A stretch of DNA of 64,000 nucleotides from Brevibacillus laterosporus LMG 15441 (lineage in GTDB: Bacteria > Bacillota > Bacilli > Brevibacillales > Brevibacillaceae): assembly GCF_000219535.2 (NCBI RefSeq), contig NZ_CP007806.1, positions 2,390,501-2,454,500 on the forward strand. The letters are read 5' to 3'. Below are positions 9,232 through 59,777 of this stretch, piece after piece. The position numbers were made by a program, and so were the translations under genes. Under the pieces are notes generated by a model that was not told the origin of the DNA, did no database searches, and saw only the letters and a list, made by a program, of their open reading frames with translations. Position 1 is the stretch's first letter. The number at the start of each line of letters is the position of its first letter.

Positions 9232-9822
9232 AGCAAACTACTTACAGCCCAAAATGGCTTGTATTACATGAAAGTGCAGTAGCATTATCATCTCGGACAG
9301 ATGTGTTTCCTAAAACCGTGATATTTTACTTGATGACGTGACTGAGGGGCAGAATGAACAAACGAGAATCATTACCAACCTTACATTATTTCTTATTTAA
9401 GAAGAATGGATTTTTATGCCTTCATACTTCTCATAGATGAAAGATGACTATGAATAGGAGTTCTTGCACAATATGGATTCAAAGTCGAATTCATCATTTT
9501 ATAGGTCTTCAGCTTGCAGATCCCCAATACCTCCTGTTCTTTTATCTCCACGTTGTAGAACGCTATTGACTTAGTGTTCTTTTTTATTGTCAAAAGCAGT
9601 TTATTTTTGTCGAAAAATTTAATGCCGTTGCGAATAAAGTTAAAAAACTGAAATCGTAGAACAGCGTGGTAAAATATTGCTCTAAAGGAAGGGCGAGGGG
9701 AATGTCATTAAGATTTTTTATAATGGAATAAATTAACTTCATGAATACCCTTGTTACGATCCAGCTTTCATTATAAGATAACTATGTTTTGCCAATTTGG
9801 AAATGGGAGGTAACTATCTCGT
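9232..9822. other. Gene-free stretch before the toxin locus
   Basis: I find no supported frame on either strand. The last 30 bases carry a GGGAGGTAACT ribosome binding site for the gene at 9823. The upstream promoter of the Rhs locus should lie here but is not resolved. Confidence 0.3.
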
Positions 9823-11878
9823 ATGTACAACACGATTAAAAAGTGGACAGCAATGATATGGATTATCACGCTGTGTATCAGTATCTTGCCAGGAGGTGAA
9901 GTCATTGCTTTAAGCAATACCGTTAGAACAAACGACAAGCCAGACGTTGGAACAGAGGGAAACAGAGGGGATTTTACAAACTGCGAAGGAAAAGACGCCC
10001 AGCTCTGATTCTTCCTCTCTAGCTACACCAGAAACGACAGCGCTCTCAGAAAACACGGCTTCAACCGTTGAACAAAAATCTGAGAAAGAATCTGGGATAG
10101 AACCGGATCATGAAAAACAAGAAAATCAGGGAAACCAGGGAAACCAGCAAAAACAACAGACCCAAGAGCCTCAAACAAACTCCGAACTCATTTCTATACC
10201 GGGATATGAATCTTCCGTTTCCTCTCAGCTTACTCAAGAAAATGAGGTAACGCTTGAAAAAGAGACCGTGGAAAAAATTCTGCAAGAACAAGAGACAAAA
10301 CAAGCCGTTACCATTTCTCTTACGTCTGAACGAACATTACCACAAGAAGAGCTTGATCCAAGTAAACTTATCGAAATAGAGAAGTTGATGTATGAAGCTG
10401 CTGCGCCAGAGATTACTTATAACGACAATCAGTATAGGGGTCAACTGGTTAAAGGAAAATACTTCGCTACTGTACTAGATAAAGACGATCAAAAAACAGT
10501 GATTCTCAGCATTGAATACAGTGGGAACATTGAGCGTTCCCCGCTTACCCTTGAGCATTTTGAACTAGGAGACGAGCAGCCTACAAATCAACCTAAGGTC
10601 TCGCTTCGCAAGAAAAGATCGATTTTAGAAGAGGAAGAGCCGCCAACAAGACCCGGTCTTTTGAAAGCATTTGAAACGGATGATCAAAAAATGGTCATCA
10701 ACTGGACTGGTTCGAAAAGCAATGTTGCTTTAGCAGGCTATGAAATCTATCGAAATGGAAAGCGTATTGCTATGACAAAAACGACTACGTTTACGGATAG
10801 TGATCAAGACCCCTTGGTTTACAGCTATGTGGTTCGAGCGATCGATATAGCAGGTAGACGTTCCGAGCCAAGTAATGTCGCGGTTCCCATTCCCTATAAA
10901 AAATCGGTCCAAATCTATAAGAAAGAACGGTTTTATGATGATACATCCTGTGCAATTAGAGAGGAATCTGCTTTCAGAGAGGCACCTAGCCGAATTACCT
11001 ATCAGGATAAAGATAACTACAGTGGATATGTAAAGAAGGATAGTTATATTCTCATCGGTTGTGGCGGAAAAAATGAGGATAAGTATGCTGATATCGATGT
11101 GATTTACAAGGGTGAGGTTTATCGAAGCTTACATGAACTTTCCACGAAGCCGGTTAATCTCGTAGCATCATCTGTTAGCGAAAACGAAGTTACGTTAACA
11201 TGGGACCCTGTCGTAAAACCAAACGATCCGATTCTATCGTATACCGTGATCCGAAATGGGGAGAATCCCAAAAATGTAAGCCAGAATAAGTATATTGATA
11301 AGAATGTACAGCCTGGCATGCAATATCATTATCAGGTTGTTGTCATTTTTGAATCCTTAACCGTCTCGCTACTCAGCGATGAGTTAAAAGTCCAGATACC
11401 TGGTACCGTTACGAATCCGCAACTAATCCTATCTACGAATGTACTTCAGGAGTCAAGTCAAAACGATGGCAGCATAGCTATGCCTTTAAGCGTTTATCTC
11501 AAGCAGGGAGTTTTTGCAAAAGATCTCTCGAGCGGAATCACGATTGAAAATTTGCCAGAAGGTTTAATCGTATCGACAAAGCGTGATTCAGACAATCAGA
11601 TAACCATTCAATTGAATGGCAAAGCCAAGATCCATGATAAGCCAGTGGACAACCTGATGGTGAAAATAGAGAAGAATTGTATTGTTGGTGCAACTGCTGA
11701 AGTAAAAAGCGATGCCTTCTCGATTGCTTTTCGAGAGAACCATATCGCAGCCTTGTATGAATACGAATACAATGAGCAGAATCAATTAATCGCTATTAAA
11801 AAAGACGGAACAGTTATCCTTCGTTATTTATACGATGAAAATGGAAATCTACTAACGAAAAAAACCGTACAGGAGTAA
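9823..11878 (+). pseudogene. Secreted FnIII/YD-repeat protein of the Rhs locus, with one frameshift
   Basis: The N-terminal 50 residues (signal peptide MYNTIKKWTAMIWIITLC...) and the remaining ~640 residues are in different + frames. Removing one base of the GGGG run at 9967-9970 joins them. After a Glu/Gln/Ser-rich linker come two fibronectin type III domains (PTRPGLLKAFETDDQKMVIN... and KPVNLVASSVSENEVTLTW...) and a final YD-repeat, YEYNEQNQLIAIKK, with YLYDENGNLL. The stop lies 23 bases before the Rhs gene, so the two are co-transcribed. It is probably a cell-wall or secreted partner of the toxin carrier. A single homopolymer lesion could be a sequencing error; an alternative TTG start at 9947 would give a protein without a signal. 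Confidence 0.7.
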
Positions 11879-11901: not shown

Positions 11902-14900
11902 ATGTATAGAAAATGGGTTTCCTCTTTTTTATGTGTTGCCATTCTTTGGACAGGGTTATTTACAAACGCATTTGTTGTTGGGGCAACAGATGCGCCAGAG
12001 AAAAACGAGGAAATAAGAAAGACAAATGAAAAGGATACAAAAGATTGGATTATAGAGGAACAGAAAAAAGTAGAACAGCAGGAAAAAGAACCAACATCTA
12101 CGAAAGGGGACGTAACTAAAGAACAAATAGCCCAAATGAAGTGGGAACAGCTTCCGCTTGCGTCTGTTCAACAGCTTTTTGATCAGGGGGATCGCACACT
12201 TTTACAAATCGTTGCCTATTATTATACCGATGTGCATCAGCTTTTGACAGAAGAAGAGATCAATCAGCTGTACACGTGGAATGACGAACAGGTCATGGAC
12301 CAGATTGCCAACTTATCAGCCGAAAAAGTACAGCTGTTAGAGCAAAAAGCCCCTAGTGTCGTTCAGGCTCTACAGGATTGGAGAGACAAGGACAAACCAA
12401 AAGCTAGAGTAAAGCGCATGGCATCGGCTCCTGCACCAAGTCCAAGTATGCACTTTACAGAAAAGGAACAGCCTATTCGTCATTTTACCAATCATGTGGA
12501 AAATCCCGTAGATGATATCTATCTTACCTCGAACATGCTGGAAACAGATTTGACCCTTGAAGGAAAGCATGGAATGGATTTGGTTATCCAGCGCCGATAT
12601 AACTCGCTATCTAGTAAAATTACGGCCCCTGGTTTCGAATATAGTGAAACGGCGAAAGAGAATAGAACCACGATCGTAAGAGAAGAATCCGGTACCTTGC
12701 CCCATACGGTAGGAACAGGCTGGAGCTTTAATCTTCCAACCTTTGATGAGATAACAAAGGAATTAGGGATTAACGTACATGATTATAGTAATCAGCAATT
12801 TTATGAGGCAAAAAATACAAAACACCCTGTTTCCCAATTTATCATGTCCGGTGATGATTGGAGTACGATTGATAGTAGTAAAAAGCTTCCCTACCAGAAT
12901 ATTAAATTGCCTTCTCTTATGACAAACAGAGAGTTAGGTTTTGCAAAAGATGGTTATTCCTATTCCATTGAATATAGGGAAAAAGGTAGTACGTATATTG
13001 TTGAAAAGCAAAATATCTATGGAGATAAAATTACGTACAAGATTCCAGATTATAAAAGTACGATCGAAATTATTGATACCGTTGGAAGAAGAGTGGAGAT
13101 TGGGTATGGGAAGGAAGGAACGATCGATTTCCTTAAGGTGTATAACCAAAAAAATAACCTGATCAAAGAGCTTAGATACCATTATGGAGATCTGAACAAT
13201 ACACAGCGGCTGGAGAGTGTAGAAGAAGTAAAGGATGGAAAATCTACTACAATTGCTAGATACAGCTATAAAACAGCAACTGCGGAATATAACTACATCA
13301 AGTCATACGAATTACCAAAAGAAAATAACGAGGCTGTGAAGCCAGATCAGCTTGAATCGGAAGCCTATCTAGCAAAAGACAAACAAAAACGGCAGTTTAT
13401 TGAATACTTATTGCTGCAAAAGGTAGAGTATCCTACACAGGGCTTAACAGTCGATTATACCTATAGCACCTTTAATCCTGAATCTGCCAATCCGTTTGAA
13501 CGCGGAGTCATTAGGCTTTATCAGGATAACCAAGCGATATCCTACTATACGTATCATCCGGTCACTTCGGTTCGATTTAGCTATGATCAAACCTCTTCCT
13601 TGTTTGGGAATTCCGAAAGAAAAAGCTTTATCTATTACTACAAATTCACTAATCAAGGAAAGCCAACAAAAGAGATTTGGAAGACACCTAAGTCTGGTAT
13701 TACGCGTTTGAGTAACCATCCGCTTCGTCAGGGAGACATTGTGACCATTGAAGAAACTAATAGTTTTTCCTCGCAATCGACGGAAAGAACCTATCGGGTT
13801 AATGAAAACGAACATTTTAATCTGGTTCTTGAAAAGAAGACAAGTCCCAAAGAGCAATCCGAGTCGGTAGCAGCAGATGGGAAAGCTTATCGATATAACC
13901 CGGTGAGCTATACCAGCTACGCCTACGAAGGGATTAAAACGAAGCCATCGTATGTCTATCATTTTGTAGATAACTTGCCAGAGGGAGAGGCTAAGCAGTA
14001 TTTATTGGCACCTCAGATCGATAAGCGCGACAAGATCGAAAACCTCTCCTCCTTAGCAAATGAGGCGATCTATGAGTATGACCAAAATGGAGATGTGACA
14101 GAGCAAAAGGACCCGAATGGTTTAACAACCCATTACAGCTACAAAGAAGTAGGGACCTTGCGACTGCCTGTTCTCGTGGAACAAGTTGCTGAAAATGGAC
14201 ATTCCAAAAAGCAAGAGTATGTTTACAATCGGGACAATTTACTGGAAACAGAAACCATTACAGCCAAATACCCAGGGCAGGAATATGAGGATAAGCTGCT
14301 TCGTACATACAAGTATGGGGACAAAAAGCTTCCAATTTCCTTAACAGAGGTTCAATTTGGGGCAAGTGATGAATTCTCCCATTTCTCGAAGTCCTTTACC
14401 TATGACCAGAATGATCTGCATGTCTCAACGGAACAAATTACGGTCTATAACGGAGAAAACTCCCTAGAAACGTATGCATTTACCTATAGGTATGACGATT
14501 TAGATTTCTTAGTAACTAAACAATTTCCTGATGAGAGCATAGTAGGGTATTTCTACGATGAACTTGGAAGGATTCAAAAGGAAATGTTTATTTCCTCAGA
14601 TGGCGATAATCGGGAAACAAAATATTCGTATACAAACAGGGATCGTACAGTGATGAAATCGTTGCCTAACAAAACAGGTCTGATCACTTCATATACACCT
14701 GCTGGGGAAGTCGTGTTCTCCGTAGAGGTAGATAGTCAGGGCAATCGACGTACTCTTGTAGAAAATAGCTATGCAGAGGATGGAAAACGATTAGTAGCAA
14801 CATATCCGTATGGGAAAAAGGAAAAAGGAACCACATACAGCTATCACAGTGATGGAACCCTAAAGACTGTCACAGACGCGCTGAAACGCACGACCACCAT

Positions 14901-56915: not shown

Positions 56916-56969
56916 AACAGCAATAAAGCCGGTATTCACTTCGCTAAGGTGTAACCAGCTTTATTGTTA
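56916..56969 (+). terminator. Terminator of the ECF operon
   Basis: AACAGCAATAAAGC and GGT pair with ACC and GCTTTATTGTT around a loop of about 17 bases. Confidence 0.75.
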
Positions 56970-57134
56970 TCCAAGATAGGGGATAAAGAAGCTCTATATG
57001 CGATCATTAGGAGCAAACATATATCAGTTCAAAGATTAATGATTCCTCCTAATCAAAGCGCTCAAATATTAATACCGTTTAATGAGAAAGTTACATCAGA
57101 TCATCTAGAATTAATGGAATTCTATAGAAGTTAG
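56964..57134 (+). other. Short frame of unknown origin
   Basis: A 56-codon frame from TTG ends 17 bases before the next small ORF (ALYAIIRSKHISVQRLMIPP, PFNEKVTSDHLELMEFYRS). It overlaps a terminator arm and has no ribosome binding site, so it is probably the 3' fragment of a lost gene that once preceded the small ORF. Confidence 0.3.
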
Positions 57135-57151
57135 TCAAGGAGAGGGTACTT

Positions 57152-57304
57152 ATGACAAAACCTGAATGGGTTTTTGATTCAAGTTGGCGTGATGATCCCA
57201 GATATCATCTAAGTGAGGACATACTTATGGCAGAGCCTGATTGGTCGATTCAATACACATGTATTACAAGTGACCCCGGTTGGTCCGATGATCCTGGTTA
57301 TTAA
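57152..57304 (+). CDS. Small Trp/Asp/Pro-rich protein (50 residues)
   Basis: CAAGGAGAGGG, 6 bases before the ATG, is one of the better ribosome binding sites in this area. The 50-residue product (MTKPEWVFDSSWRDDPRYHL...) has four Trp and an inner repeat: SSWRDDPRY, then PDWSIQY, then PGWSDDPGY at the C-terminus. It has one Cys and no signal peptide or membrane helix. The repeat-bearing, Trp-rich tail recalls precursor peptides of RiPP or cyclophane systems, but no modifying enzyme (radical SAM, YcaO, lanthionine synthetase) is nearby. It may be such a precursor left alone, or another small protein. It is too short for default gene finders. Confidence 0.5.
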   Translation: MTKPEWVFDSSWRDDPRYHLSEDILMAEPDWSIQYTCITSDPGWSDDPGY

Positions 57305-57407: not shown

Positions 57408-57434
57408 AGTCGCCATTTACGGCGGCTTTTTCTA
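57408..57434 (+). terminator. Terminator after the small ORF
   Basis: AGTCGCC and GGCGGCT pair around ATTTAC; TTTTTCT follows. Confidence 0.75.
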
Positions 57435-57887
57435 TTTATGGAAAACAGTTGTTATTGGTGGATATATCTTAACATGGCTGAAAGTTTAACTTTCACATCA
57501 CCAAATATATAGCCAAGGGACTATATCAAAAGTACCTTATCGAGAGAGAGGACTTAAAACGGTTGGAGGAATTGTTTTAGTAGGAGAAGAAGGTTTACAT
57601 TAAATTGATTTTCTATCTGACGACGAGAAAAACGTTTTACTTCAGAATGTCACTACATGCTCATAACATTAAGAAATACTTTGAATGTATTGAACTATGT
57701 GAGGCTGGGGTTCCTTTAGAAGAAAATAATACAGAGCTAAAAGCTAGAGGCATACTTAGCAATGATTAATTCATATTCTGAGCAACATAACTATGACAAT
57801 GTTGAAAGTCATCTGGAGGTCTTTAGGGAATTTGAACATCACAGATTCAACAGATGAAATAATCAGCAAGGAAGAATGTGATGAATG
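57435..57887 (+). other. Debris stretch
   Basis: Broken + frames (for example GLKTVGGIVLVGEEGLH, HAHNIKKYFECIELCEAGVP and SYSEQHNYDNVESHLEVFRE) suggest one or two decayed genes, but I recognise neither. No ribosome binding site and frame are intact together. Confidence 0.3.
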
Positions 57888-59593: not shown

Positions 59594-59777
59594 TTTCTAC
59601 TTGCAAATTCTTAAGGAATTAGATATTGAACCTACTAACAAAGAATCTATTGCTAATTATATATTTATTCTTGGAGTACCAAGTGGGGGATACACTTTTC
59701 AAAAAGGTGGAAATGCTTCTTTACAAGCAACTTATTATTCAATAGAGAGTTTGAAACTTCTCAATATAACAGAGTAA
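59594..59777 (+). pseudogene. Prenyltransferase/squalene-oxidase-repeat fragment
   Basis: The frame starts at the transposase remnant and reads LQILKELDIEPTNKESIANY, IFILGVPSGGYTFQKGGNAS and LQATYYSIESLKLLNITE before a stop. The PNKE..., GGY/F... and TYYS/A..L.LL spacing matches the C-terminal repeat of prenyltransferase beta-subunit or terpene-cyclase-like proteins. The rest was removed, probably with the IS insertion. Nothing supported follows up to 60000. Confidence 0.5.

Follow-up and report, generated by a model that had tools for sequence, protein, structure and literature searches.

A 50-codon open reading frame (ORF) in the chromosome of Brevibacillus laterosporus LMG 15441, short yet rich in Trp and Asp, raises the question of where such a frame came from and whether it is still of use. 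It lies in the window, by which we mean the whole 64,000-nucleotide stretch of DNA that was analysed. The original prediction saw in it a small protein-coding unit, possibly a RiPP-like precursor or a signalling protein. On balance, we consider it probable that the ORF derives from a phage micropeptide array and now stands in the chromosome in fused form. The ORF and its expression signals are the following.

57152 to 57304, plus strand: ORF of 50 aa, very likely a fusion of two micropeptide cistrons, from copies and alignments.
57137 to 57145, plus strand: Shine-Dalgarno box AAGGAGAGG of the first old cistron, read directly; the same or nearly the same box precedes the L005 and L020 copies.
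57408 to 57427, plus strand: intrinsic terminator AGTCGCCATTTACGGCGGCT, then a T-run; nearly the same hairpin lies 3′ of the arrays in L017, L018, and L027.

The product, MTKPEWVFDSSWRDDPRYHLSEDILMAEPDWSIQYTCITSDPGWSDDPGY, contains four Trp residues (6, 12, 31, and 44), one Cys (37), and the repeats SSWRDDPRY (residues 10 to 18) and PGWSDDPGY (residues 42 to 50). AAGGAG is spaced 9 bases from the ATG, and the terminator-like hairpin begins 104 bases past the stop; terminator-like sites numbered two (the same hairpin, one per strand) versus 0.6 expected from shuffles. The strong ribosome binding site and the terminator some 100 bases downstream were thus both correctly predicted. The ORF matched no family in Pfam, PHROGs, NCBIfam, or PADLOC, profiles being weak for such short peptides, and the protein had no homologues among phage and plasmid records at E values up to 1. 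A search of solved structures returned a single match, to a pneumococcal surface protein (E = 0.0011; 22.2 bits; residues 1 to 35), which we set aside as likely reflecting Trp-rich composition.

Close copies were found nearer by. A second copy in the same genome (C1:1870372) is 92% identical, the copy in genome G002 is 98% identical, and that in G004 is 97% identical over residues 15 to 50, with a different 5′ part. The G002 copy occupies the same chromosomal site, with ECF sigma factor and DUF4367 genes upstream and a metallophosphoesterase gene downstream. A search of 99 genomes of relatives (E up to 0.1) gave matches in 8, with best E values of ≤5e-22 in G000 (the genome that holds the window), G002, and G004; the other five (best E, 0.014 to 0.098) were taken as chance. 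Conservation in relatives was therefore found, and the claim that this is not a random frame is upheld by copies in the same genome and in congeners. With its ORF, ribosome binding site, and copies, the small coding unit that the original prediction described stands, at least in appearance.

Both halves of the ORF have counterparts in arrays of phage micropeptide cistrons. These arrays are operon-like: as many as seven cistrons, 12 to 48 codons long, follow one another, and every cistron has a Shine-Dalgarno box to itself. They occur at L017 (G002 C1:4049000), L018 (G004 C45), L022 (B. laterosporus phage Emery, 27.8 to 28.4 kb), and the IMG/VR contigs L023 to L029 and L039. Emery has seven cistrons, L018 and L027 have six, and L017, L039, and L023 have five; the L029 array is cut at the end of the sequenced stretch examined, L026 was dropped as identical to L017 over the 1,500 bases compared, and L023 and L028 share one IMG taxon number. 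Every sequence belongs either to a single genus or its phages or to a record that names no host. In order, the Emery peptides are MNAHNGSGWTFESFPEWKCCTDPNWVDNPGH, MTNPEWHDDPGH, MYDINWVDDPRGIIVWFVDPGF, MTESDWDADPGY, MIYDWTDNPQGITDWDYDPGF, MTVQRYCNTDDPGHAYDPGH, and MAEPDWHDDPGYVDDPGH. Across this array, the Emery record annotates only gp37 (L022 12075 to 12269) and gp38 (12353 to 12544), hypothetical proteins on the opposite strand that are likely wrong calls.

The arrays are built to a common plan. All 34 intercistron gaps measured in nine arrays span 16 to 21 bases, and the order of the cistron classes is broadly kept. We collected 41 peptides (39 distinct) from eight arrays, a set that leaves out L019, L021, L025, and L028. 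Trp is present in 40 of them, 30 end in [DN]PG[HYFQ] and 36 in G[HYFQ], and net charge ranges from −6 to 0. No hydrophobic export signal was found in the 41 peptides or the window ORF (highest 15-residue hydropathy mean, 0.67). The 12-mers, such as MTNPEWHDDPGH, are alike from end to end, with no conserved leader followed by a variable core. Three array peptides searched against PADLOC, PHROGs, and NCBIfam gave no matches, again with profiles that are weak at such lengths.

Set against these arrays, the ORF resolves into the following parts.

57152 to 57209, plus strand: MTKPEWVFDSSWRDDPRYH, the first of the old cistrons, corresponding to the 18-aa cistron MTEPDWIFDPGWLDDAGH of L027.
57210 to 57212, plus strand: TAA, the probable old stop, one base out of frame (window CATCTAAGTGAGGA versus L027 CATTAAATGAGGGAGG).
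57213 to 57219, plus strand: GTGAGGA, a weakened form of the second cistron's Shine-Dalgarno box, which the ORF now encloses.
57227 to 57304, plus strand: MAEPDWSIQYTCITSDPGWSDDPGY (25 aa), the second of the old cistrons, corresponding to the class-F cistrons of 25 aa in phage arrays.

The first half and MTEPDWIFDPGWLDDAGH of L027 are identical at 62 of 100 aligned bases (over 57132 to 57232), and the second half matches four phage-array class-F copies at 47 to 49 of 78 bases. In each of four peptide comparisons of the window halves with separate cistrons (one for the first half, three for the second), none of 5,000 ORF shuffles reached the observed score. We infer that one inserted base put the old TAA out of frame. 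The alignments make it very likely that the window ORF derives from an array, through fusion of an 18-aa-type and a 25-aa-type cistron by stop loss. As the same fused form is present in L005 and L020, the fusion predates the split of these copies and the window copy. Loss of the stop would give one 50-aa product, or also a 25-aa peptide, as the second cistron could still start internally at ATG 57227. The original prediction was right that the ORF looks like a coding unit and that its internal repeats matter; it overlooked the fusion of phage-array cistrons, in which each half contributes its own repeat, and it missed the second start at 57227. By eye, the 48-aa cistron of L018 (9821 to 9967) also looks like two array cistrons fused, in an event separate from that of the window: within it is an ATG (9902) that has a Shine-Dalgarno box.

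To assess coding, we compared 43 hand-picked cistron sequences, leaving out the L019, L021, and L026 copies and some L025 and L028 cistrons. The pN/pS ratio was 0.21 to 0.35 in each of seven cistron classes, class F here including the window and L005, both of which were left out of the six-frame test. In that test, the proposed frame had a pN/pS of 0.28 and no stop codon; the other forward frames gave 0.95 and 1.01 (145 and 267 stops), and the reverse frames gave 0.90, 0.45, and 1.70 (45, 121, and 108 stops). Purifying selection acts on all seven classes and is strongest in the proposed frame. Synonymous sites of the array cistrons differ at 45 to 52% while the residues stay. We also scanned both strands of 12 loci (507,852 strand-bases) for runs of at least four Shine-Dalgarno-led mini-ORFs. 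Such runs occurred once per locus in seven loci (L017, L018, L019, L022, L025, L027, and L039), always at the array, the last member of the L025 run not being of array type. There were none in the window, L004, L005, L020, or L021 and none in 60 first-order simulated sequences; as the loci were chosen for array or fused copies, this rarity is that of their flanks and not of all phages. We regard it as very probable that the arrays function at the peptide level in phage.

The present state of the window copy is a narrower matter. It may be a dead remnant of a phage array that makes nothing useful and persists only because it has had little time to disappear; this reading is compatible with array derivation, and we give it an even chance. 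Truncated phage genes surround the ORF, as would suit a remnant:

56964 to 57134, plus strand: truncated remnant of the gene upstream of the L005 copy (96-aa ORF, L005 7916 to 8206).
57464 to 57500, plus strand: remains of a phage XRE-type regulator gene, of which just the start is left, by its match to phage Sundance.
57504 to 57660, plus strand: fragment 80.6% identical to a SecTim467 hypothetical-protein gene.

The first of these matches L005 at 134 of 141 aligned bases, with 18 gap columns. The second shares 91.9% identity across 37 bases with the beginning of the Sundance gene for a "putative DNA-binding protein"; in L020, the corresponding position holds an 87-aa fragment that matches phage regulator families. 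The four window ORFs of >190 aa near the finding carry Pfam metallophosphoesterase, sigma factor, DUF4367, and Cu amine oxidase N domains. By eye, a 545-aa ORF in L005 (15578 to 17215) ends in almost the same sequence as a 58-aa ORF at window 59601 to 59777, so the window and L005 regions share a second duplicated piece.

Decay would also fit the class-A cistron, which is absent from the window, present in L020 only in shortened form, and without its DPGH end in L005; the partly degraded state of L019, a third array in the same genome; and the replaced 5′ part in G004. Against a dead remnant, the frame is open in the window, L020, and L005, and second codon positions show no difference in any of the three pairs. 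The window and G002 ORFs are identical at 149 of 153 bases and the next 156 bases at 145, so that 4 differences in the ORF compare with 11 in the sequence that follows; the flanking DUF4367 and phosphoesterase genes match at 668 of 702 and 860 of 870 bases. The window ORF differs from that of L020 by three synonymous changes and one nonsynonymous change and from that of L005 by three and four, respectively, changes too few for a firm selection test on the fused copies. That the window copy is still functional, as a fused micropeptide, is possible, at somewhat less than an even chance.

The array might instead act as RNA or DNA, for instance as a translated leader, an attenuator, or a set of repeated protein-binding sites, the peptides being incidental. 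Several features could serve such a role. A conserved leader, TGGAAGGANTTNNNAATNNTCTTNTCGAAAG, precedes the first cistron (L017, about 9690 to 9745, and equivalents); its pattern, with up to three mismatches, matched nine times in 12 genomes and records, each time just 5′ of an array. The leader, of about 40 bases, could fold over the first Shine-Dalgarno box, and 96% of its cells are paired (nine sequences) compared with 46 to 70% when the partner is slid. It may mask the Shine-Dalgarno box, or it may serve as a promoter: we take its GGAAGG-N16-GTCGAA to resemble ECF promoters, and a search for sigma-type promoters before the array found no convincing one (2 sites versus 2.3 expected). Terminator-like hairpins flank the L018 array, which is followed by ORFs resembling, by eye, DNA-packaging genes. 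Finally, an element of about 110 bases lies 3′ of seven arrays and, judged by eye, varies less from locus to locus than the arrays do:

L022 12600 to 12752: element of about 110 bases.
L024 2315 to 2455, minus strand: the same.
L039 10404 to 10545: the same.
L023 1036 to 1176: the same.
L028 628 to 766, minus strand: the same.
L019 9615 to 9745: the same.
L021 10020 to 10150: the same.

The element is foldable and ends before different sequences; in L023, its last hairpin has a likeness to the L31-Firmicutes leader, scoring 27.5 bits where the gathering score is 33.3. With no two-sided pair changes, and with shuffled leaders scoring the same as the observed one, the folds of the leader and the 3′ element are without covariation support. 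The leader and 3′ element may well be regulatory RNA. As to the array between them, no Rfam match reached the gathering score over an array in the loci searched, and synonymous divergence of 45 to 52% with residues kept disfavors action as RNA or DNA, which we consider unlikely.

Peptides, then, are the products that we take the arrays to have been selected for, and their distribution is narrow. A strict pattern for the peptide tail matched 3 of 39 family genomes and 3 of 398 class genomes, all in one genus (3 of its 5 genomes), and a reversed control gave no match in the 398. A relaxed pattern matched 15 places in the five genus genomes against 4 matches for its reversed control; the places at G003 C35 and G002 C1:1065845 look like chance. 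The relaxed pattern had no match in SecTim467, Sundance, Jimmer1, or Abouo (4 of 13 records). In IMG/VR, the strict pattern found seven contigs, one duplicating the G002 array; a second pattern added L039, and three further patterns added none.

By blastn with the G004 C45 array (E up to 0.01), Emery was the sole match among 50,697 phage records, and the 43-aa class-A peptide found Emery (E = 1e-9) among phage and plasmid records; one weak match per collection (E = 0.3 and 0.5) was taken as chance. We compared ORFs of at least 50 codons in 24 kb of Emery with eight loci (L017, L018, L023 to L025, L027, L028, and L039; E up to 1e-4). Outside the array and the following element, they shared only a methyltransferase (42% over 67 aa) and an XRE regulator (31% over 72 aa). 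Because Emery shares little else in the stretches compared, the array appears to move between different phages. A broader statement, which we would call a toss-up, is that a new kind of gene cluster exists in phages of the B. laterosporus group: a mobile operon with as many as seven micro-cistrons, whose products would be free Trp peptides, mostly acidic, that have a C-terminal [DN]PG[HY] recognition motif in common and act together on one cellular target.

How would such peptides work? They may be made from one message as free peptides that bind a common host or phage protein via W-x-D-D-P-G-(H/Y)-COOH, with multiple cistrons to raise the dose and supply variants; the role would probably be host takeover, counterdefense, or prophage competition. 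Recognition by one protein is suggested by the conservation of free C termini on separate tiny cistrons. Three observations sit less well with the explanation as a whole: 5 of the 41 peptides end in GGIGW, one reverse frame also has a pN/pS below 1 (the 0.45 above, with its 121 stop codons), and the loss or shortening of class A in the fused copies resembles a decaying remnant. Binding of one host or phage protein through a common C terminus is our best guess from the peptides themselves, and a doubtful one.

Multiprecursor RiPP gene clusters also contain several tiny related peptide genes in tandem, and the array peptides, with their Cys, Trp, and Asp, might likewise be precursors of a modified natural product, as the original prediction had proposed for the window ORF. 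An AgrB-family gene does lie about 7 kb from the Emery array, but no other RiPP-type enzyme is named among the 53 features around it, and none was recognized by eye among the L017 and L018 ORFs listed. No modifying enzyme was seen beside the window ORF or the arrays whose neighbors were read, and unlike in such clusters, both the start and the end of the peptides are conserved, with no split into leader and variable core. The 38-aa ORF beside the AgrB-family gene is also its likelier partner. We consider the RiPP proposal very unlikely. These two Emery genes, gp55 and gp56 (L022 19404 to 20046, the AgrB-family gene first), are a possible phage-borne agr-type peptide pair. Emery also has, at L022 17289 to 17552, a match to RF01412 (121.1 bits), which we take to be the BsrG-type RNA of a type I toxin-antitoxin system.

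We find it just as hard to credit that the array belongs to a bacteriocin cassette, as immunity or helper peptides. Directly upstream of the array in L025 are a geobacillin-26 family bacteriocin gene (9641 to 10372, minus strand; NCBIfam NF035925; E = 2.5e-45) and a 72-aa membrane-type protein (9423 to 9641, minus strand); by eye, L019 and L028 have similar sequences. Seven arrays (L017, L018, L023, L024, L027, L029, and L039) instead have a 28-aa membrane-type peptide directly upstream, and in L019, L021, L025, and L028 a terminator-like sequence, by eye, separates the parts. Just before the L018 array, two such tiny peptides of 34 and 28 aa (9238 to 9342 and 9478 to 9564) have Shine-Dalgarno boxes; the PHROGs matches of these membrane-type peptides are weak and to families of unknown function.

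The array peptides could also be secreted quorum-sensing signals of a prophage. AimP of the arbitrium/RRNPP type (PMC11323111) represents short signaling peptides from prophages of a related bacterium, and remnants of an XRE-type regulator lie just downstream of the ORF in the window and L020. Unlike those systems, the arrays have several cistrons and no export signal, the hydropathy mean over 15 residues being at most 0.67; nor was a receptor gene or an XRE-type regulator seen directly beside the arrays in L017 and L018. In Emery, a small XRE gene lies about 400 bases past the array on the other strand, with larger regulators further off. There is only a slim chance that the peptides are such signals, and for the signaling protein raised as a candidate for the window ORF, no hydrophobic stretch that would support export was found. 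A chance open frame, for which only the length of 50 codons speaks, is refuted by the copies, with homology, selection, and architecture also against it, and has practically no probability left.

Very short phage proteins have precedents. T4 Stp, of 26 aa, is an anti-restriction protein. To our knowledge, the known cases are single genes, whereas the arrays comprise five to seven motif variants on separate cistrons. The likeness is that both are very short, phage encoded, cytoplasmic by sequence, and perhaps bind one protein; single phage small proteins act on host or phage proteins (PMC11323111). A search of the open-licence literature by titles and the starts of abstracts found nothing on such arrays, which are apparently of a kind undescribed in the databases and literature searched.

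If the array origin is true, the window holds what is left of such a cluster after its uptake into the chromosome, a single fused gene, and it shows a route to a longer small protein, the fusion of adjacent micro-cistrons. Genes of 12 to 25 codons are missed by gene finders with the usual length cutoffs. A run of them kept by selection would mean that phages use whole sets of separate genes to bring very short peptides into play, and the arrays are a compact system for asking what a 12-residue peptide does in a cell.
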